From IMG/VR virus record IMGVR_UViG_3300013114_000058, positions 1-34,438 of that record: a DNA stretch of 34,438 bases. One strand, given 5' to 3'. The stretch comes from a virus. Positions 1,061 through 34,438 of this stretch are shown one piece after another; position 1 is the stretch's first letter; the number at the start of each line of letters is the position of its first letter. The notes beneath the pieces were generated by a model. It was not told the DNA's origin and searched no databases. It saw nothing but the letters and a program-made list of their open reading frames with translations. Position numbers and translations under genes: made by a program.

Positions 1061-1150
1061 ATGAGTATTACAAATCTTTTATTAGCTGAAAACGAGGACT
1101 TCAAAATCGTAGCAGTTAAGTTCCCTACCTTACGTAGAGATTCTAATTAA
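1061..1150 (+). CDS. 29-aa ORF coupled to DNA polymerase
   Basis: The ORF reads MSITNLLLAENEDFKIVAVK and ends in RRDSN. A strong ribosome-binding site (GCAGGAG, 1045-1051) precedes it. Its stop codon shares one base with the polymerase start (TAATG at 1148-1152). The polymerase ATG has no good ribosome-binding site of its own, so translation through this short ORF probably re-initiates at the polymerase start. It may be a leader peptide, a very small accessory protein or the remnant of a longer gene. No family recognised. Confidence 0.55.
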   Translation: MSITNLLLAENEDFKIVAVKFPTLRRDSN

Positions 1151-2865
1151 TGTACAAATTAATCAATTCTCTAGATGACATTCCTGTCATTGATTCAACT
1201 AAACCTTTATTCTGCGATACAGAGACAGATGGCTTATATGGCCGCATCGAACTTCTGCAATTAATGCAAGAAGGCTGGGATGAAGCTATCCTGGTTCGTA
1301 GACCCGACCCGTTATTAACCGCAGTATTCTTAGCTAAGTATAACACAGTATGGCATAATGCACACTATGATATCACTACTGTGCAACAGCAAACTAAGTC
1401 AACCTGGGTACCTGAGCAATATGAAGACACCTTTCTTCTAGCTCGTTTAGCTTATCCTAATAAAGAAGCGTTTAGTTTAGATGCTTGTTTAGACTATGCG
1501 TTAGGTTATGACCCTTATGAAGAAGCTAACTTAGATAAGAAAGTACTTCAAAAGTCTGACTGGTCTGCTATACACCTATCTAAAGACCAACTAACTTATG
1601 CTGCTATTGATGTCTTTTATATGCCGTTCTTATGGGATGCCGTGAAGACTAAAGTTGACGACATGAACTATAAGTTAGATAAACTAACTTTAGGTTATTG
1701 TTGGGGCTTTCAATGGCGTGGTATGCCGGTAGACAATGCTAAGCTAAATACTAAGTGGGATAAGATAGAAGACGAACTAAGTACTATCGATATGCCTATT
1801 AATGCTAATTCATGGCAGCAAGTACGTACCTGGCTTAATGTTGACCAGTCTGATGACAAGTTTTTAGCTACCCTTGAAATTAAAGGAGGTAATGACAAAG
1901 CAGCACGTGTACGTAAGGTGCGTAAGCTAAATAAGTTAATTAGCTTCCTTAAAAAGTTTGACCTCGACGATAACCGTATCTTAGGTAAGTTTAAACCTAG
2001 CACACGGTCTGGTCGCTTATCTTCAGACGACCAAAACCTTCAGCAATTACCACGGGCTTTAAAAGGTATCTTCGGCTACAATGAAGATGATGGTCGTATC
2101 CTTATTTATTCTGACTATGCTCAATTAGAACTACGTACTATTTGTGCTATTCTTGGCGTAAAAGTAATGGAGAAACTATTCCGTGATAATGAGGACCTTC
2201 ATGGGTATGTGGCTAGTATTCTTTTTGGTGCTGATTACACTAAAGCTGATAGACAAGTCACAAAGACCTATAACTTTAACTTGCTTTATGGTGGTTCTGT
2301 CGGTATGGTTCTTAGCATTCTCATTGGTTATGGATTCCTTATTGAAGAACGTGTAGCTAATAAGCATAAAACTAAATGGCTAAACCTATTTACTGAAATT
2401 AATAAATGGCAACAAGAACAAATATCAGCCTGGCGTAAAGGTAAGCTTAGTTCTACTCCATTAGGTCGTCAGTACAAAGGTAAGTTGATGACCGACCAGA
2501 TGAACATTAAGAACCAAGGTGCAGGTGCTGAAGTAGCTAAGTTAGCTTTACACTATTTTGCTCCATGGCTTAAAAAGTACAATGAAGCTAACGATTGCGA
2601 TTTTGGTATTTGCAATTTTATACATGATAGCTTTATTCTAGACGGTCCTAATGACCCTGAGCTATACAAACCCGTCGCAACTCAATTAGCTGAATGTATG
2701 CAAGAAGCCTGGTTTGAAATGAGTAAGCTTTACAAAGTTAAAGATTTACCAATGCCTGTAGATGTAGCAGTTGGCTATAACTGGGGTGATATTGAAGATG
2801 ATGCTGAAGATCTCTGGAACTTCACATTAGACCCATACAAAATGTTGGAGCAAGCTAATGCTTGA
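1150..2865 (+). CDS. Family A DNA polymerase with 3'-5' exonuclease domain
   Basis: 571 aa replicative polymerase. The exonuclease domain (about 1-170) has D23/E25 in FCDTETDG, D74 in HNAHYD and D154 in YAAIDVFY. The polymerase domain has SGRLSSDDQNLQQLP (287-301), motif A YSDYAQLELR with catalytic D322, motif B R368...K372...Y380-G381 and motif C IHDS with D493. All catalytic residues for synthesis and proofreading are present. It is shorter than E. coli Pol I and lacks a 5'-nuclease domain, as is usual for T7-like replicative enzymes. No primase-helicase is visible; it may lie outside the window. The start overlaps the preceding short ORF by one base, and the end overlaps the next gene by 8 nt. 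Confidence 0.95.
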   Translation: MYKLINSLDDIPVIDSTKPLFCDTETDGLYGRIELLQLMQEGWDEAILVRRPDPLLTAVFLAKYNTVWHNAHYDITTVQQQTKSTWVPEQYEDTFLLARLAYPNKEAFSLDACLDYALGYDPYEEANLDKKVLQKSDWSAIHLSKDQLTYAAIDVFYMPFLWDAVKTKVDDMNYKLDKLTLGYCWGFQWRGMPVDNAKLNTKWDKIEDELSTIDMPINANSWQQVRTWLNVDQSDDKFLATLEIKGGNDKAARVRKVRKLNKLISFLKKFDLDDNRILGKFKPSTRSGRLSSDDQNLQQLPRALKGIFGYNEDDGRILIYSDYAQLELRTICAILGVKVMEKLFRDNEDLHGYVASILFGADYTKADRQVTKTYNFNLLYGGSVGMVLSILIGYGFLIEERVANKHKTKWLNLFTEINKWQQEQISAWRKGKLSSTPLGRQYKGKLMTDQMNIKNQGAGAEVAKLALHYFAPWLKKYNEANDCDFGICNFIHDSFILDGPNDPELYKPVATQLAECMQEAWFEMSKLYKVKDLPMPVDVAVGYNWGDIEDDAEDLWNFTLDPYKMLEQANA

Positions 2866-3670
2866 TTTTGAATACGAATATGCTAAGCTAGTTAGAAAGA
2901 TTCTAAAAGTTGGCAAAGAACGTGACACACGCAATGCTAAAACTAAAGCTATCTTTGGTGAGCAACTAAAGATTGATGAGTTGCGTCATGGTTACTTCCC
3001 AATTCTCCAGGGTCGTAAAATGTTTTACAAAGGTGTGTTAGGTGAGTTGGCTGCTATGTTGCGTCAACCTAAACACTTAGACGACTTTAAGGTGTGGGGT
3101 TGCAACTACTGGGAGCTGTGGGCTAATGCTGATGGCTCAATCAATGTAGATTACGGTAATGCCTGGTTTGACTTTAACGGCTTTAATCAAATAGAAGCAT
3201 TGAAAGATAAGCTAAAGAACAACCCAACTGACCGTAGAATGATTATCAATGGTTGGCGACCAGATAACTTAGGTAATCTTAGCTTACCATGTTGTCACTA
3301 CAGTTATCAGTTCTATGTTGATACTGATGGTTACTTAGATATGATTTGGATTCAACGTAGTGTTGATACAATGATAGGTTTACCATCAGACATCATCTTT
3401 GCAGCGGCGTGGCTTGTTGCTATAGCTAATGAATTCGGGTACAAGCCAGGCACAATTACTATGCAGTTAGGTGACTGCCACTTATACGAGTCACATTGGG
3501 AAACTGCTGAAGATTATTTAGCTAATGTTGAAGACGGCTGCATTGAGCGTTACCCAATGTATGATTTGTTAGTTGGTCCAGGTTGTGACTTTACAAAATT
3601 TGAACCTACCTGGTTAACCTTCAATGAATTTAAATCTTACCCTAAACTAAATTTGGAGTTGTATAGCTAA
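2858..3670 (+). CDS. ThyA-family enzyme, likely dCMP-specific (dCMP hydroxymethylase-like)
   Basis: 270 aa with a complete thymidylate synthase fold signature: DTRN near residue 24, catalytic LPCCH with C146-H147, QFYV, IQRSVD (165-170) and GDCHLYESH (206-213). After the QRS motif, thymidylate synthase has LGLPFN, whose Asn (E. coli N177) reads the uracil ring. Here the segment is IGLPSD, with D178 in that place. Asp at this position is the known hallmark of T4 dCMP hydroxymethylase and switches preference to dCMP. The enzyme therefore probably makes 5-hydroxymethyl-dCMP (or 5-methyl-dCMP) from dCMP and methylene-tetrahydrofolate. Plain thymidylate synthase is the alternative. Start supported by GGAG at 2847-2850. 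Confidence 0.8.
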   Translation: MLDFEYEYAKLVRKILKVGKERDTRNAKTKAIFGEQLKIDELRHGYFPILQGRKMFYKGVLGELAAMLRQPKHLDDFKVWGCNYWELWANADGSINVDYGNAWFDFNGFNQIEALKDKLKNNPTDRRMIINGWRPDNLGNLSLPCCHYSYQFYVDTDGYLDMIWIQRSVDTMIGLPSDIIFAAAWLVAIANEFGYKPGTITMQLGDCHLYESHWETAEDYLANVEDGCIERYPMYDLLVGPGCDFTKFEPTWLTFNEFKSYPKLNLELYS

Positions 3671-4236
3671 TGAACTTATTAGGAATTTACAGTCGTGCTG
3701 CTGCTTGGAATGAAGCAAGATACGACCGAGTGTACAATCATGACTTCTCTATGGCTTTATTACGTGAAGAGCATAAAGAGTATCTAGACGCTATATCAGA
3801 CGTTAAAGGTTTAGATGCACTATGTGATATCATCTTTGTAGCTATGGGAGTTCTATGGAAACTAGACTTAGAACCAGAAGTGTTCGAAGAAGACGTTGAA
3901 GAAGCATACAAACATGTTAGCAAGCTCATGGAAACTAACACGCTGATGCCAATATACTTAATTAGCGCTGTTATTGATTGTTGCGACCATGATTCGGATT
4001 ACCCTGTATCTTTAGCGATGCATGTGATTATTAGTTTAGCTATGGTTCAAATGTCAATCTTCGGCTTTGATGAAGTTAAAAAGTGTGTTGCTGTATTAGT
4101 AGTATGTGATAGTAACGACAGTAAGTCAGTACAAAAGGCTGCTGCTAACGTTAAAGCTAATATTGATAAAGGTAAAGACTTTATTTGCCCAGAACCTCGT
4201 CTACAGGAGTTGCTTAACAATGAAGGACATCGTTAA
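3670..4236 (+). CDS. MazG-like nucleotide pyrophosphohydrolase
   Basis: 188 aa, all-helical. The N-terminal half carries REEHKE (residues 32-37) followed by DALCD (49-53), matching the EExxE...[ED]xxD metal-binding pattern of the MazG/dimeric dUTPase superfamily of nucleoside triphosphate pyrophosphohydrolases. The C-terminal half (about 90-188) is helical and not recognised. Lying between a putative dCMP-modifying enzyme and a dCMP deaminase, a role in turning dCTP or dUTP into the monophosphate is plausible (T4 gp56 does this), but the substrate cannot be read from the sequence. The start shares one base with the preceding stop (TAATG) and the end overlaps the next gene by 17 nt. Confidence 0.65.
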   Translation: MNLLGIYSRAAAWNEARYDRVYNHDFSMALLREEHKEYLDAISDVKGLDALCDIIFVAMGVLWKLDLEPEVFEEDVEEAYKHVSKLMETNTLMPIYLISAVIDCCDHDSDYPVSLAMHVIISLAMVQMSIFGFDEVKKCVAVLVVCDSNDSKSVQKAAANVKANIDKGKDFICPEPRLQELLNNEGHR

Positions 4237-4852
4237 ATACGTAATGGCTGAAGCAGCTAAATCAAACGTTGAAAAGCGTAAAGTTGGGTGTATTATTACT
4301 GGTCGATACACTAAAGGTGGAGCTGAGTCTATTTTGGCTACTGGTTATAATCATTCTGACCATGTAGATACTGACGGTTTAATAATGCATGCAGAAGCTA
4401 AAGCTTGTGAAGCACTTGTTGCTCAAGCCTTAGAAACTGAAAAATATGTTTTAACTGCGTATGTTAGTCACCCTCCTTGTCCAGCTTGTGCTAAGTTACT
4501 AGCAGACCATGGTGTAACTAATGTTGAAGTGGTAGAAGAGTTTATGAAGTTCGATGGTGATAAGTTACGTTATGACTTAATACCGCCTTCTACAACTAGA
4601 GCTTTAGCTGAAGTTCTAACATTTGGTGCGCGTAAGTATAAACCAAATAACTGGAAGAATGTGTCACAAGAAGAACTACATCGCTATAAAGGTGCGGCTA
4701 TGCGACACTTCGAAGCATATCGTGCTGGTGAATTCTTTGATGAAGAAAGTGGTATGCCGCATTTATGGCATTGTCTAACCAATCTTAGCTTTTTGATTGA
4801 ATTAGACGTACCAAACGAAGACACCGCCAAACCTAAAAATTTATTAGCCTAA
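4220..4852 (+). CDS. dCMP deaminase fused to DUF5664 dATP/dGTP diphosphohydrolase-like domain
   Basis: 210 aa from the ATG at 4220, chosen because AGGAG lies 10 nt upstream and the residues before it are not protein-like. Residues 1-108 form a zinc-dependent cytidine/dCMP deaminase domain with MHAEA (H57, E59) and PPCPAC (C87, C90). Residues about 109-198 match the DUF5664 family annotated as dATP/dGTP diphosphohydrolase, seen in FDGDKLRYDLIPP, LTFGARKYKPNNW, MRHFEAYRAGE and MPHLWHCLTNL. The join is only a few residues, so this is a genuine two-domain protein. It would deaminate dCMP to dUMP and probably trim purine dNTPs. Last gene before a hairpin at 4860. Confidence 0.85.
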   Translation: MKDIVKYVMAEAAKSNVEKRKVGCIITGRYTKGGAESILATGYNHSDHVDTDGLIMHAEAKACEALVAQALETEKYVLTAYVSHPPCPACAKLLADHGVTNVEVVEEFMKFDGDKLRYDLIPPSTTRALAEVLTFGARKYKPNNWKNVSQEELHRYKGAAMRHFEAYRAGEFFDEESGMPHLWHCLTNLSFLIELDVPNEDTAKPKNLLA

Positions 4853-4859
4853 CTAATTA

Positions 4860-4887
4860 AAGCCAGATTTTTAACTAAATCTGGCTT
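4860..4887 (+). terminator. Perfect 11-bp hairpin after nucleotide-metabolism genes
   Basis: AAGCCAGATTT (4860-4870) pairs perfectly with AAATCTGGCTT (4877-4887) around a 6-nt loop. It lies 7 nt after the stop of the deaminase fusion. The trailing sequence is CGTTCTGGAG, without a U-run, and TGGAG then serves as ribosome-binding site for the next gene. It is either a weak terminator or an RNA-processing and stability element between two transcript segments. Confidence 0.55.
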
Positions 4888-4902
4888 CGTTCTGGAGCCA
4901 TA

Positions 4903-7613: not shown

Positions 7614-8475
7614 ACCTATGTTAGCTAGTAGTACGATACCAGAGCTAACAGCTATTACCTACCCAGTTATTGCATCTATTAAACTAGATGGTATTCGTTG
7701 TTTAATCAAAGATGGTATAGCTGTTAGTCGTAATCTCAAACCTATACCTAATAAGTTTATTCAAAAAGAGTTAGCTAAATATAATTTAGAAGGCTGCGAT
7801 GGTGAACTATTAGTTCATGGTGACTTCAATAGTGTTCAATCTGCTGTTATGAGCCAAAGTGGTGAACCTGATTTCACTTATTACGTGTTCGACTATTTCT
7901 TAAGGCCTAATGTGCCATTTGTACGTCGTTTAGTTATAGCAGATGAAGTGGTGCGAGCTGCAGCAACTAATAGAGTTGTAAGTGTTAAACAACTAGAATG
8001 TGCTAGTGCTGACAGACTCCATATGTTATATGAGACCTGGATTAAAGAAGGTTATGAAGGAGCAATTATTAGGGCTACAGATAGTCCTTATAAACATGGT
8101 CGGTCTACCCTACATCAAGGCTGGATGTTAAAGCTCAAACCAGTCAATGATGATGAAGCTAAAGTTATAGGTTATGAAGAGTTACTTCGTAATGGTAACT
8201 TAGCTACTATAGGTGAGTTAGGACAACAAACACGTTCAAAAGAATTAGCTGGTATGGTACCAGGTGATATGCTTGGTAGTCTTAAATGCGAATACCAAGG
8301 TAAAGAGTTTTTCATAGGTTCAGGCTTTACAGAAGCTCAACGTATTGACCTATGGAAAAATAAAGAGTCGCTAATTGGAAAACTAGTGACATTTAAGTTC
8401 CAGGAGCTATCTAAGTATGGAGTACCTAGATTCCCTGTATTTAAAGGTTTTAGAGATGAAAACGATATTAGCTAG
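7603..8475 (+). CDS. ATP-dependent DNA ligase
   Basis: 290 aa, the size of small phage ligases. The adenylation motif I is ASIKLDGIR, with nucleophile K27 in KLDG and R32. Motif III-like YYVFDYF, motif IV EGAIIR and motif V LKLKP follow in order, then a C-terminal OB-fold region ending in YGVPRFPVFKGFRDE. It seals nicks in replication and recombination using ATP. A strong ribosome-binding site GGAGGTG precedes ATG 7603. Confidence 0.9.
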   Translation: MAFKPMLASSTIPELTAITYPVIASIKLDGIRCLIKDGIAVSRNLKPIPNKFIQKELAKYNLEGCDGELLVHGDFNSVQSAVMSQSGEPDFTYYVFDYFLRPNVPFVRRLVIADEVVRAAATNRVVSVKQLECASADRLHMLYETWIKEGYEGAIIRATDSPYKHGRSTLHQGWMLKLKPVNDDEAKVIGYEELLRNGNLATIGELGQQTRSKELAGMVPGDMLGSLKCEYQGKEFFIGSGFTEAQRIDLWKNKESLIGKLVTFKFQELSKYGVPRFPVFKGFRDENDIS

Positions 8476-31334: not shown

Positions 31335-31500
31335 TTATATAAATTTATTACGCTTAAATTCTGCATGCATCCATTTACTACCTTAAATGTATAGTTATAT
31401 AAATTTATTATACTTAAACTTGTATGCATCCATTTTACTACCTTATATGTATAGTTATATAAATTTATTATACTTAAACTTGTATGCATCCATTTTACTG
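31335..31500. repeat. Three tandem copies of a 60-bp AT-rich repeat
   Basis: Units begin at 31335, 31395 and 31455 (exact 60-nt period; the third is cut after about 46 nt). Each reads TTATATAAATTTATTATACT, then TAAACTTGTATGCATCCATT, then a less conserved end. The first copy differs slightly (ACGCTTAAATTCTGCATGC). The minus strand of each unit encodes a 20-residue peptide in frame, an effect of the 60-nt period and probably not a gene. Candidate iteron array, promoter cluster or recombination substrate just after terminase. Confidence 0.8.
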
Positions 31501-31560
31501 ATTTCCGTTACGGTGGGAGCCCCCCAGACTGGCCCTAGGCCCTAGTGACCAGGATCCAGG
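31501..31560. other. GC-rich islet after terminase, candidate packaging or end site
   Basis: A sharp change from AT-rich repeat DNA to about 60 nt rich in G and C. It contains CCGTTACGG, GGGAGCCCCCC, the tandem 7-mer GGCCCTAGGCCCTAG and two CCAGG sites. It codes for nothing visible. Being next to the terminase genes, it could be a cos or pac element, or a replication feature; function is not shown by the sequence alone. Confidence 0.4.
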
Positions 31561-31562
31561 CA

Positions 31563-31674
31563 ATTAGATGACTATAACTCAATAGCATATGCTTATAACC
31601 CAGGTTGTTATAACGATATAGCTAAATAGTTGACTATAGCTCAGTAGTATATGTTTATAACCCAGGTTGTTATA
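31563..31674. repeat. Decayed 62-nt direct repeat
   Basis: TGACTATAACTCAATAGCAT at 31569 recurs as TGACTATAGCTCAGTAGTAT at 31631. Each is followed by the same CCAGGTT hairpin (31593-31613 and 31656-31674). The two copies show scattered substitutions, which suggests an older duplication than the leader repeats downstream. Confidence 0.6.
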
Positions 31675-31737
31675 TGCTTATAACCAGGTTTGTTATAACT
31701 ATATAGCTAAATAACATCTATGCAATTAAGTTATATG

Positions 31738-31969
31738 CTTATAGCCAGGTTTGTTATAACTATATAGCTAAATAGCATAGATTCACTTAAACTATATACT
31801 TATAGCTAAATATTATAAAATAATATTGTACAAACCTGGTTACCTGGTCTATACGCACATGCACGTACTATTTATAATAAAGTCTCAACATTTTAGTTAT
31901 ATACTTATAGCATTCTACTCTATAAAAAAGTTGTACTTAATTAAAATTTGGCTTTATTATTAAATTATC
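31738..31969 (+). repeat. Structured leader repeat, copy A (232 nt)
   Basis: Nearly identical to 32160-32378 apart from a 13-nt insertion (ATAAAATAATATT) and a few changes. Outer arms CCAGGTTTGT (31745-31754) and ACAAACCTGG (31830-31839) pair exactly, and an inner 12-bp arm pair is broken by one mismatch. A promoter candidate lies near the 3' end. It ends 29 nt before the start of the 55-aa gene at 31999. Confidence 0.85.
31931..31960 (+). promoter_or_regulatory. Promoter candidate in leader copy A
   Basis: TTGTAC (31931-31936), 18-nt spacer, TATTAT (31955-31960). The -10 matches 5 of 6 consensus bases, the -35 only 3 of 6. It is identical in leader copy B and the same distance from the end of the repeat, which supports function. 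Confidence 0.4.
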
Positions 31970-32689: not shown

Positions 32690-33124
32690 ATGACTATTAA
32701 GAAACAATTTGTAGAGATTTATGAGCTATTGGAAGCTAATAAGTCTAAGAAAGTTAGCACAGTACTGCCTGAGCTAATTGAGTTGATGACTGCTAAGCAA
32801 AATAGCAAGAACTTCATCCTGGACGATGATGGCAATGTAACTCATGTGTATTGCTACTATCATAAGCAATGGGAGGATGTGACTGTTGCTGAGTATGGAG
32901 CTAAGAAGTCTACTGCAACTGGACTTAATACAATGTGTAAAGAAGGAGTCTCACAGTGGACTAAGGCCCAGAAAGCTAAGAAGGATGCTAAAGCTAAATT
33001 GCTTGAAGATGTAGCTAAAGGTCTGGTCGAAGTCTCTGAAGTTGCTACTAAGATGACAGAGATAGACGCCCAGGCAGCTGAAATTATCCCTCGTAAAGAC
33101 GGTCACCAGGTTGACTTCAGCTAA
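32690..33124 (+). CDS. Conserved small phage protein, paralogue 1 (144 aa)
   Basis: The centre reads VYCYYHKQWEDVTVAEYGAK, then KKSTATGLNTMCKEGVSQWT. It aligns without gaps to the centre of the 158-aa protein at 33754 (KCYYHKLWMDPQVAEFGAKK, then GSASGFNSMCKDGVSKWT). C55, H58 and C83 are invariant between the two and could bind a metal. A helical, charged N-terminus and a Lys/Ala-rich helical C-terminus flank the core and both end in EIIPR or QIIPR-type motifs. A very strong ribosome-binding site (AAGGAGG) precedes it, so it should be well expressed. Function unknown. Confidence 0.75.
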   Translation: MTIKKQFVEIYELLEANKSKKVSTVLPELIELMTAKQNSKNFILDDDGNVTHVYCYYHKQWEDVTVAEYGAKKSTATGLNTMCKEGVSQWTKAQKAKKDAKAKLLEDVAKGLVEVSEVATKMTEIDAQAAEIIPRKDGHQVDFS

Positions 33125-33753: not shown

Positions 33754-34230
33754 ATGGCAAATATTAAAAAAGCATTTCAACCAATTGTTACTTTATTAGA
33801 AGACAACAGCGACGCAATCGCACCAGAACTTTTAGCTCAAGTTAAAGAGTTAGCTTCAGCTAAAGTAGGTGGCGGCGGTGGTAAAGCTACTACGTTCCAT
33901 CGTGACCCAGACACTGGCGAAGTAATTGCTGTTAAGTGCTACTATCACAAGTTATGGATGGACCCGCAAGTTGCTGAATTCGGTGCTAAGAAAGGTAGTG
34001 CATCGGGCTTCAACAGCATGTGTAAAGACGGCGTCAGCAAGTGGACTAAGCAGAAAGCAGCAGCTCAGAAAGCAGAAGCAGCTATCTTAGACCAGGTAGC
34101 TAGTGGTGAGTTAGCTCCAAGTGACATTGAAGCACGTCGTGAAGAGATTGCCGCTGAAGCAGCTCAGATTATCCCACGTGAAGATGGCTACGGCTATGAG
34201 AAACTTGAAGATTTATTAGCTGCACGCTAA
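33754..34230 (+). CDS. Conserved small phage protein, paralogue 2 (158 aa)
   Basis: Paralogue of the 144-aa protein at 32690. The shared core is KCYYHKLWMDPQVAEFGAKK, then GSASGFNSMCKDGVSKWTKQ, with C62, H65 and C90 conserved. The N-terminal helix has a Gly-rich linker (KVGGGGGKAT) absent from the paralogue. The C-terminal half is an Ala/Lys/Glu-rich helix (KQKAAAQKAEAAILDQVASG) and ends in EDLLAAR. It is under a structured leader and followed by a terminator, so it forms its own transcription unit. Function unknown; early expression likely. Confidence 0.75.
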   Translation: MANIKKAFQPIVTLLEDNSDAIAPELLAQVKELASAKVGGGGGKATTFHRDPDTGEVIAVKCYYHKLWMDPQVAEFGAKKGSASGFNSMCKDGVSKWTKQKAAAQKAEAAILDQVASGELAPSDIEARREEIAAEAAQIIPREDGYGYEKLEDLLAAR

Positions 34231-34296: not shown

Positions 34297-34438
34297 ATGA
34301 ACCTAGAAAAAATCCTAGCTGACCACAAGTTATGGTTAGCTAATGACCCTAAAGGCACACGTGCTGACCTGTATGGTGCTGACCTGTATGGTGCTGACCT
34401 GCGTGATGCTAACTTGCGTGATGCTAACTTGCGTGGCG
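34297..34438 (+). CDS. Pentapeptide-repeat protein, 5' part only
   Basis: MNLEKILADHKLWLANDPKG leads into tandem A(D/N)LxxG-type pentapeptides (ADLYG ADLYG ADLRD ANLRD ANLRG). Pentapeptide-repeat proteins fold as right-handed quadrilateral beta-helices, and some mimic DNA and bind gyrase. The N-terminal helix with K-x-W and NDPKG is common in phage members. The gene runs off the right edge, so length and C-terminus are unknown. Confidence 0.85.
   Translation, partial: MNLEKILADHKLWLANDPKGTRADLYGADLYGADLRDANLRDANLRG

Follow-up and report, generated by a model that had tools for sequence, protein, structure and literature searches.

In the DNA of phage Xp12, 5-methylcytosine replaces cytosine (PMC9206674, PMC8670742). 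We found no assignment of a gene for the Xp12 deoxycytidine monophosphate (dCMP) methyltransferase in the literature searched, and the paper on its relative AXL1 terms the genetic mechanism of DNA modification unknown. The dCMP hydroxymethylase of phage T4 (gp42) adds water via Asp145, which precedes the catalytic Cys by three residues (position -3), and via Ser94-x-Tyr96. Trp83, the residue that controls solvent access in thymidylate synthase (TS), is replaced by Val in gp42, which also has no C-terminal tail; its D145N mutant is inactive (PMC6400193). In TS, an Asn-to-Asp change switches the substrate from deoxyuridine monophosphate (dUMP) to dCMP and the product to 5-methyl-dCMP (PMC8670742). 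In the MetaGPA study, viral DNA was selected for resistance to enzymatic cytosine deamination and cleavage; the TS domain was the most associated, Asp was enriched at TS residue 177, TS co-occurred with PF01503, PF00383 and PF14437, and the ligase domains PF14743 and PF01068 were among the top associations. Here we describe a TS-family gene and its neighbors in IMG/VR virus record IMGVR_UViG_3300013114_000058 (the window, meaning the whole stretch analyzed, 34,438 bases long). We somewhat favor a reading in which this cassette provides a dCMP methylase that makes 5-methyl-dCMP, leading to a 5-methylcytosine genome by a route other than that of T4. The residues on which this reading turns lie in the TS-family gene:

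2858..3670, + strand: TS-family protein of 270 amino acids, predicted dCMP C5-methylase; full-length PF00303 match, E 5.6e-55
3119..3121, + strand: Trp88 codon, aligned with E. coli Trp83; Val85 in T4 gp42
3146..3148, + strand: Val97 codon at the T4 Ser94 site; S-x-Y signature absent
3284..3295, + strand: Leu143-Pro-Cys-Cys146, with catalytic Cys146 and with Leu at the T4 Asp145 (-3) site, lacking the hydroxymethylase signature (PMC6400193)
3389..3391, + strand: GAC codon of Asp178, the base-choice residue

MAFFT alignments bore out the claim of an earlier, sequence-only reading of this DNA that Asp178 stands at the position of E. coli ThyA Asn177, where T4 gp42 has Asp179. Apart from this replacement of the Asn that recognizes dUMP, the protein has the ThyA fold and its catalytic residues: Glu58, Cys146, Arg166, Ser167, Asp169, His207 and Tyr209 (E. 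coli numbering) are all present, and Glu63, Arg126/127, Cys146, Gln166, Arg167, Ser168, Asp170, His208 and Tyr210 (window numbering) are intact. The 50 solved structures listed as nearest to its AlphaFold2 model (predicted local distance difference test score, pLDDT, 95.8) are all thymidylate synthases, some of them fused to dihydrofolate reductase (DHFR); the best match has Z 34 and a root-mean-square deviation of 1.5 over 258 residues, and no closer match was found in a viral structure library. BLASTP gives 124 bits against phage T2 Td versus 47.8 against T4 gp42, and in a phylogeny the clade groups with thymidylate synthases. Residue types that favor deoxyribonucleotides over ribonucleotides are known from a study of MilA (PMC5175136), and Ser168 and Arg127 of the window enzyme are of these types.

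The base-choice Asp is also widely conserved. An alignment search of IMG/VR returned 131 relatives (a single-protein search returned none), and residues were counted in 80 of these metagenomic relatives and in 8 named or window members. Asp occupies position 177 (E. coli numbering) in 78 of the 80 and in all 8, even though neither of two IMG/VR search patterns contained residue 177 (one fixed an LPCCH motif); its conservation goes beyond chance. Each genome carries exactly one TS gene, with no second copy in any of the 48 records searched.

The Asn/Asp rule fixes the base and not the product, so that methylation versus hydroxymethylation has to be read from other active-site residues. Every one of the 80 relatives has Leu at -3, as do the 8 named or window members, the latter obtained without the pattern that fixed LPCCH. 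The Ser94 site is hydrophobic (Val, Ile or Leu) in all 80 and also in the 8, and Trp is found at position 83 in 79 of the 80. Beyond the His-x-Tyr motif, the window enzyme has 60 residues versus 28 in gp42, and the alignment of the model with E. coli ThyA extends to residue 264, with its C-terminal tail superposing to the last residues. By ungapped count, the -3 residue is Asp in T4, Aeromonas avDM5, Microbacterium Glamour and SPO1 (gp29), and Glu in a Mosigvirus enzyme; a gap before the catalytic Cys of the SPO1 and Bosavirus sequences was an apparent alignment artifact, and their residues were recounted without gaps. The window enzyme thus shares Asp177 with gp42-type enzymes and has neither the acidic -3 residue, nor Ser/Thr-x-Tyr, nor the loss of tail and Trp83; as defined by these signature residues, it is outside the gp42 hydroxymethylase family. 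It combines Asp177 with a non-acidic -3 residue, a pairing that we use to mark dCMP methylases and that is our own criterion, drawn from two papers, rather than a published family definition. Because the hydroxymethylase-specific sites are all in the TS state, both in the window and across the family, 5-methyl-dCMP is our preferred prediction, and judged from these residues a 5-methyl product is more likely than a 5-hydroxymethyl one.

Cytosine modification of the genome, whatever its chemistry, seems to us likely. The five Pfam domains singled out by MetaGPA (PF01503, PF00383, PF14437, PF14743 and PF01068) are all present in the window. Moreover, C-containing six-base palindromes, counted as observed/expected under a maximal-order Markov model, are hardly depleted: the ratio is 0.97 in the window, 0.93 in Edwardsiella phage KF-1 and 0.88-1.00 in other Asp177 relatives of at least 17 kb (0.88-0.95 in near-complete contigs), with a wider scatter of 0.69-1.03 in short loci. 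Seven of eight controls that we take to be unmodified (T7, SP6, VP4, lambda, LUZ19, SIO1 and Era103) range from 0.45 to 0.63, and T4, Bosavirus DLP4 and SPO1 fragments from 0.81 to 0.92. Near-absent depletion fits relaxed selection against restriction sites. The literature searched yielded no restriction or nucleoside data on KF-1-type phages.

Among Asn177 members, the ratio is 0.775 in G031 and 0.88 in G026, two values being too few to lean on. G031 is near-complete, and neither the pyrophosphohydrolase nor the deaminase of the cassette was found there; it appears to combine reversion to Asn, loss of partner genes and more palindrome depletion. The only two Asn177 relatives have their TS genes at L057:5998-6825 and L065:6001-6819. 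The L057 contig has a DHFR gene; on the L065 contig, pyrophosphohydrolase, deaminase and kinase were not found and palindromes are more depleted.

The genes on either side of the TS-family gene are as follows:

3670..4236, + strand: all-alpha nucleoside triphosphate pyrophosphohydrolase (MazG / dimeric dUTPase-like); PF01503 E 1.8e-4, phrog_671 (nucleotide pyrophosphohydrolase) E 2.4e-13
4220..4852, + strand: zinc dCMP deaminase-DUF5664 fusion; PF00383 E 2.2e-9, PF18909 E 7.3e-30, phrog_2369 dCMP deaminase
1150..2865, + strand: family A DNA polymerase (polA); PF00476 E 3.3e-34, in an order shared by relatives

The sequence-only reading had the coordinates right, as well as the two neighbors that it named, the pyrophosphohydrolase and the deaminase, with PF01503 and PF00383 matches now behind them. 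In most relatives, the pyrophosphohydrolase gene immediately follows that of the TS-family enzyme, and the deaminase gene usually comes after it. Its model (pLDDT 93.2) has dimeric dUTPases as its nearest fold at Z 10-12, values that are only moderately informative for helical proteins, and Glu33, Glu34, Glu37 and Asp53 are invariant. We propose that it hydrolyzes deoxycytidine triphosphate (dCTP) and/or deoxyuridine triphosphate (dUTP). As in the earlier comparison with the T4 dCTPase-dUTPase gp56, a candidate nucleotide-clearing enzyme does adjoin the TS gene; hhalign gives a probability of 0.1 and no detectable sequence similarity to gp56, although gp56 itself matches PF08761 (dUTPase_2).

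The dCMP deaminase identified earlier was confirmed, with HAE and PCxxC zinc motifs in its translation; its start is placed at ATG 4220, versus GTG 4106 of the raw open reading frame, and its end at 4852. What had gone unmentioned is a fused C-terminal domain, PF18909 (dATP/dGTP diphosphohydrolase N-terminal, DUF5664). The fusion recurs in relatives; the two domains are separate in L060 and L088, and DUF5664 alone was found in L045. Since no deaminase could be recognized in Vibrio phage VPMS1, which has the Asp177 enzyme and the pyrophosphohydrolase, the deaminase is inessential to the role of the TS-family enzyme. A deoxynucleoside monophosphate kinase related to T4 gp1 (phrog_139 model) lies inside the cassette of five relatives (L029, L043, L044, L054 and L059), between pyrophosphohydrolase and deaminase in three and directly after TS in two. 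Matches to phrog_139 in frames of ~730-770 amino acids covered the P-loop only and were discarded, and the T4-type kinase family PF21448 had no above-cut-off match in the family. The TET/JBP family (PF12851) likewise had none, and the controls gave no signal either, making that search uninformative.

What the analysis itself shows is the motif and its conservation, the predicted fold, the gene order and the scarcely depleted palindromes. The route that we infer, from substrate and product to incorporation and benefit, would begin with the pyrophosphohydrolase clearing dCTP (and/or dUTP) to the monophosphate. Asp178 would let the TS-family enzyme take dCMP instead of dUMP, and, because the enzyme retains the closed, water-excluding active site of TS, hydride transfer would end the reaction, and its products would be 5-methyl-dCMP and dihydrofolate, not 5-hydroxymethyl-dCMP. 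Rephosphorylation of 5-methyl-dCMP would then fall to a kinase of the host or the phage, and 5-methylcytosine in the genome could block many type II restriction enzymes. Meanwhile, the deaminase/DUF5664 protein may balance dUMP and deoxythymidine monophosphate (dTMP), and perhaps purine deoxynucleotide pools. Of the sequence-only reading, the Asn/Asp rule supports the preference for dCMP over dUMP as probable substrate, and the palindromes, the Pfam set and the kinases of relatives support the view that the genome is likely to contain modified cytosine. The T4-like hydroxymethyl product is unsupported, the sites of Asp145, Ser94, Trp83 loss and tail loss all being in the TS state, and so is a glycosyltransferase, which that reading could place only outside the window, none having been noticed, though no family-by-family search was made.

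Other explanations have to be set against a dCMP methylase. The enzyme could instead be a dCMP hydroxymethylase that works through a different constellation of residues, with 5-hydroxymethylcytosine, possibly decorated, in the genome. It has Asp178 as in T4 gp42, a pyrophosphohydrolase adjoins as in T4, C-containing palindromes are hardly depleted, a public relative (MW202665) is annotated 'pyrimidine hmase', and an approximately unbiased (AU) test permits shared ancestry with gp42. We nevertheless consider this unlikely, since Leu at -3 and a hydrophobic Ser94 site are found in all 8 and all 80 members, the T4 D145N enzyme is inactive (PMC6400193), the -3 residue is still acidic (Asp or Glu) in SPO1 gp29 and the T4-type enzymes examined, the window enzyme has lost neither Trp83 nor the C-terminal tail, and carbamoyltransferase (PF02543) had no match above cut-off in the 49 records searched. 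Alternatively, methylation could serve thymidylate supply, with dCMP converted to 5-methyl-dCMP and then by the adjacent deaminase to dTMP, leaving ordinary virion DNA. Acceptance of 5-substituted dCMP is known among phage dCMP deaminases, and TS-like chemistry and a deaminase share the cassette in many members. However, VPMS1 pairs an Asp177 enzyme and pyrophosphohydrolase with no recognizable deaminase, such a route has no obvious need for a kinase in the cassette, and it leaves the near-absence of palindrome depletion unexplained; we think it very improbable. We would also give little chance to ordinary nucleotide supply, in which the enzyme makes dTMP from dUMP, a dUTPase-like protein and dCMP deaminase feed dUMP, and the DNA is unmodified. 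Such a role would suit the closest sequence and fold matches, which are thymidylate synthases, the resemblance of the neighboring pyrophosphohydrolase to dUTPases, the retention of His147 and the annotation of public records as thymidylate synthase. Yet Asp is present in 78 of 80 relatives even though the Asn177-to-Asp change shifts characterized TS from dUMP to dCMP (PMC8670742), palindromes are hardly depleted, and five relatives carry a kinase.

Several observations weigh against the dCMP methylase that we prefer. The kinase that had been placed outside the window was found neither in the window, which is incomplete, nor in the complete KF-1 genome. DHFR (PF00186), which would be expected to help a methylase and not a hydroxymethylase, had no match in the window, which again is incomplete, and scores above cut-off in only four relatives (G005, G025, G026 and G034), as well as in DLP4. 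The AU test leaves a grouping of the clade with gp42 unrejected (p 0.61), for which reason we have put the argument on active-site residues and have not leaned on ancestry. The window enzyme keeps His147, the ordinary TS residue, at the other position by which MetaGPA distinguished modified contigs. The Bosavirus TS, whose methylase activity is itself only putative, has Asn instead of Leu at -3. Finally, the palindrome test was exploratory, having been devised during the analysis with few controls and with hosts not identified, and the eighth control, Pseudoalteromonas RIO-1 (L151, NC_021300), is an outlier with weak depletion (0.80).

By gene order and closest protein matches, the window is a fragment of a Kafunavirus-like podophage, in agreement with the earlier assignment to a short-tailed phage. 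Its kin include Edwardsiella KF-1, IW-1 and ETP-1, Dickeya Amaethon, Vibrio VPMS1 and Pseudoalteromonas PH1, and its TS is 60% identical to that of KF-1. The window is incomplete, because it is shorter than its relatives (~41-42 kb) and lacks their primase/Dda-helicase region. polA lies directly upstream of the TS gene, with an 8-base overlap, and the order polA-TS-pyrophosphohydrolase-deaminase recurs in KF-1, PH1 and many IMG/VR relatives. In the window, the deaminase-DUF5664 gene is followed by a PD-(D/E)XK nuclease, an SNF2-like helicase, an ATP ligase and a VRR nuclease. An inverted repeat at 4861-4895 (GCCAGATTT...AAATCTGGC), right after the deaminase gene, is possibly an operon terminator. 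Elsewhere, the AT-rich segment at 31335-31806, downstream of the large terminase gene, holds two tandem arrays of ~60-bp units and is a possible origin or packaging region. The phrog_10459 family has several paralogues in the early region, at 32690-33124 and 33754-34230 in the window and at 2917-3384, 3801-4259 and 7962-8450 in KF-1 (L002), and a pentapeptide-like repeat frame (ADLYG/ANLRG) at 34362-34437 continues past the contig end.

More broadly, a large clade of small podophages may have independently evolved a dCMP methylase from TS via the Asn-to-Asp change, with 5-methylcytosine replacing cytosine genome-wide and with at least one apparent revertant (G031), a scenario that we hold tentatively, at a little short of an even chance. 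If it is true, 5-methylcytosine genomes would be common among small podophages annotated merely with a thymidylate synthase, and not an Xp12-like curiosity, and two positions, Asp177 and the presence or absence of Asp/Glu at -3, could be used to help sort phage enzymes into makers of dTMP, 5-methyl-dCMP and 5-hydroxymethyl-dCMP. Such sorting would bear on the prediction of restriction, CRISPR and type IV defense, and on phage cloning and sequencing. Isolates of the clade already exist (KF-1, ETP-1, PH1, VPMS1 and Amaethon).

The predicted product, 5-methyl-dCMP, likens the window enzyme to the Xp12 activity. In Xp12's kin, the Bosavirus phages DLP4 and AXL1, an Asp177 TS-family enzyme (L012:15766-16707, - strand, and L102:3001-3942, + strand, respectively) likewise has a PF01503 pyrophosphohydrolase and dCMP deaminase as neighbors, in an operon that includes DHFR. 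On sequence, a gene of this Asp177/Asn type is a good candidate for the source of dCMP methyltransferase activity in Xp12. The resemblance has limits: the Bosavirus and window enzymes are ~32% identical over 155 core residues only, at the -3, Ser94 and Trp83 sites Bosavirus has Asn, Ser and Phe whereas the window has Leu, Val and Trp, and Bosavirus phages are long-tailed, with 64-kb genomes and an adjacent DHFR gene. Moreover, the Bosavirus -3 Asn is the residue that abolishes hydroxymethylation in T4 D145N, whereas the window's kin would reach the predicted outcome with ordinary TS residues. The locus resembles the T4 gene 42/gp56/gp1 system, which also has glucosyltransferases, in its base-choice Asp, in having a pyrophosphohydrolase and a dCMP deaminase as partners and, in the cassettes of some relatives, in having a kinase; in contrast to T4, the window enzyme lacks the hydroxymethylation signature and has the tail, no kinase accompanies it in the window or KF-1, and its genes form one compact operon. 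The modified-cytosine contigs of MetaGPA have the same neighboring Pfam set and Asp177, but they also have carbamoyltransferase, which the window's family lacks in 49 records, and the window enzyme keeps His147. The same Asn-to-Asp change was reportedly made in laboratory TS in 1992. The resulting kind of dCMP methylase, N177D in E. coli and N229D in L. casei TS, combines the TS framework with a base-choice Asp, as does the window enzyme; those enzymes were engineered, whereas the window enzyme is natural, conserved and housed in a phage operon.

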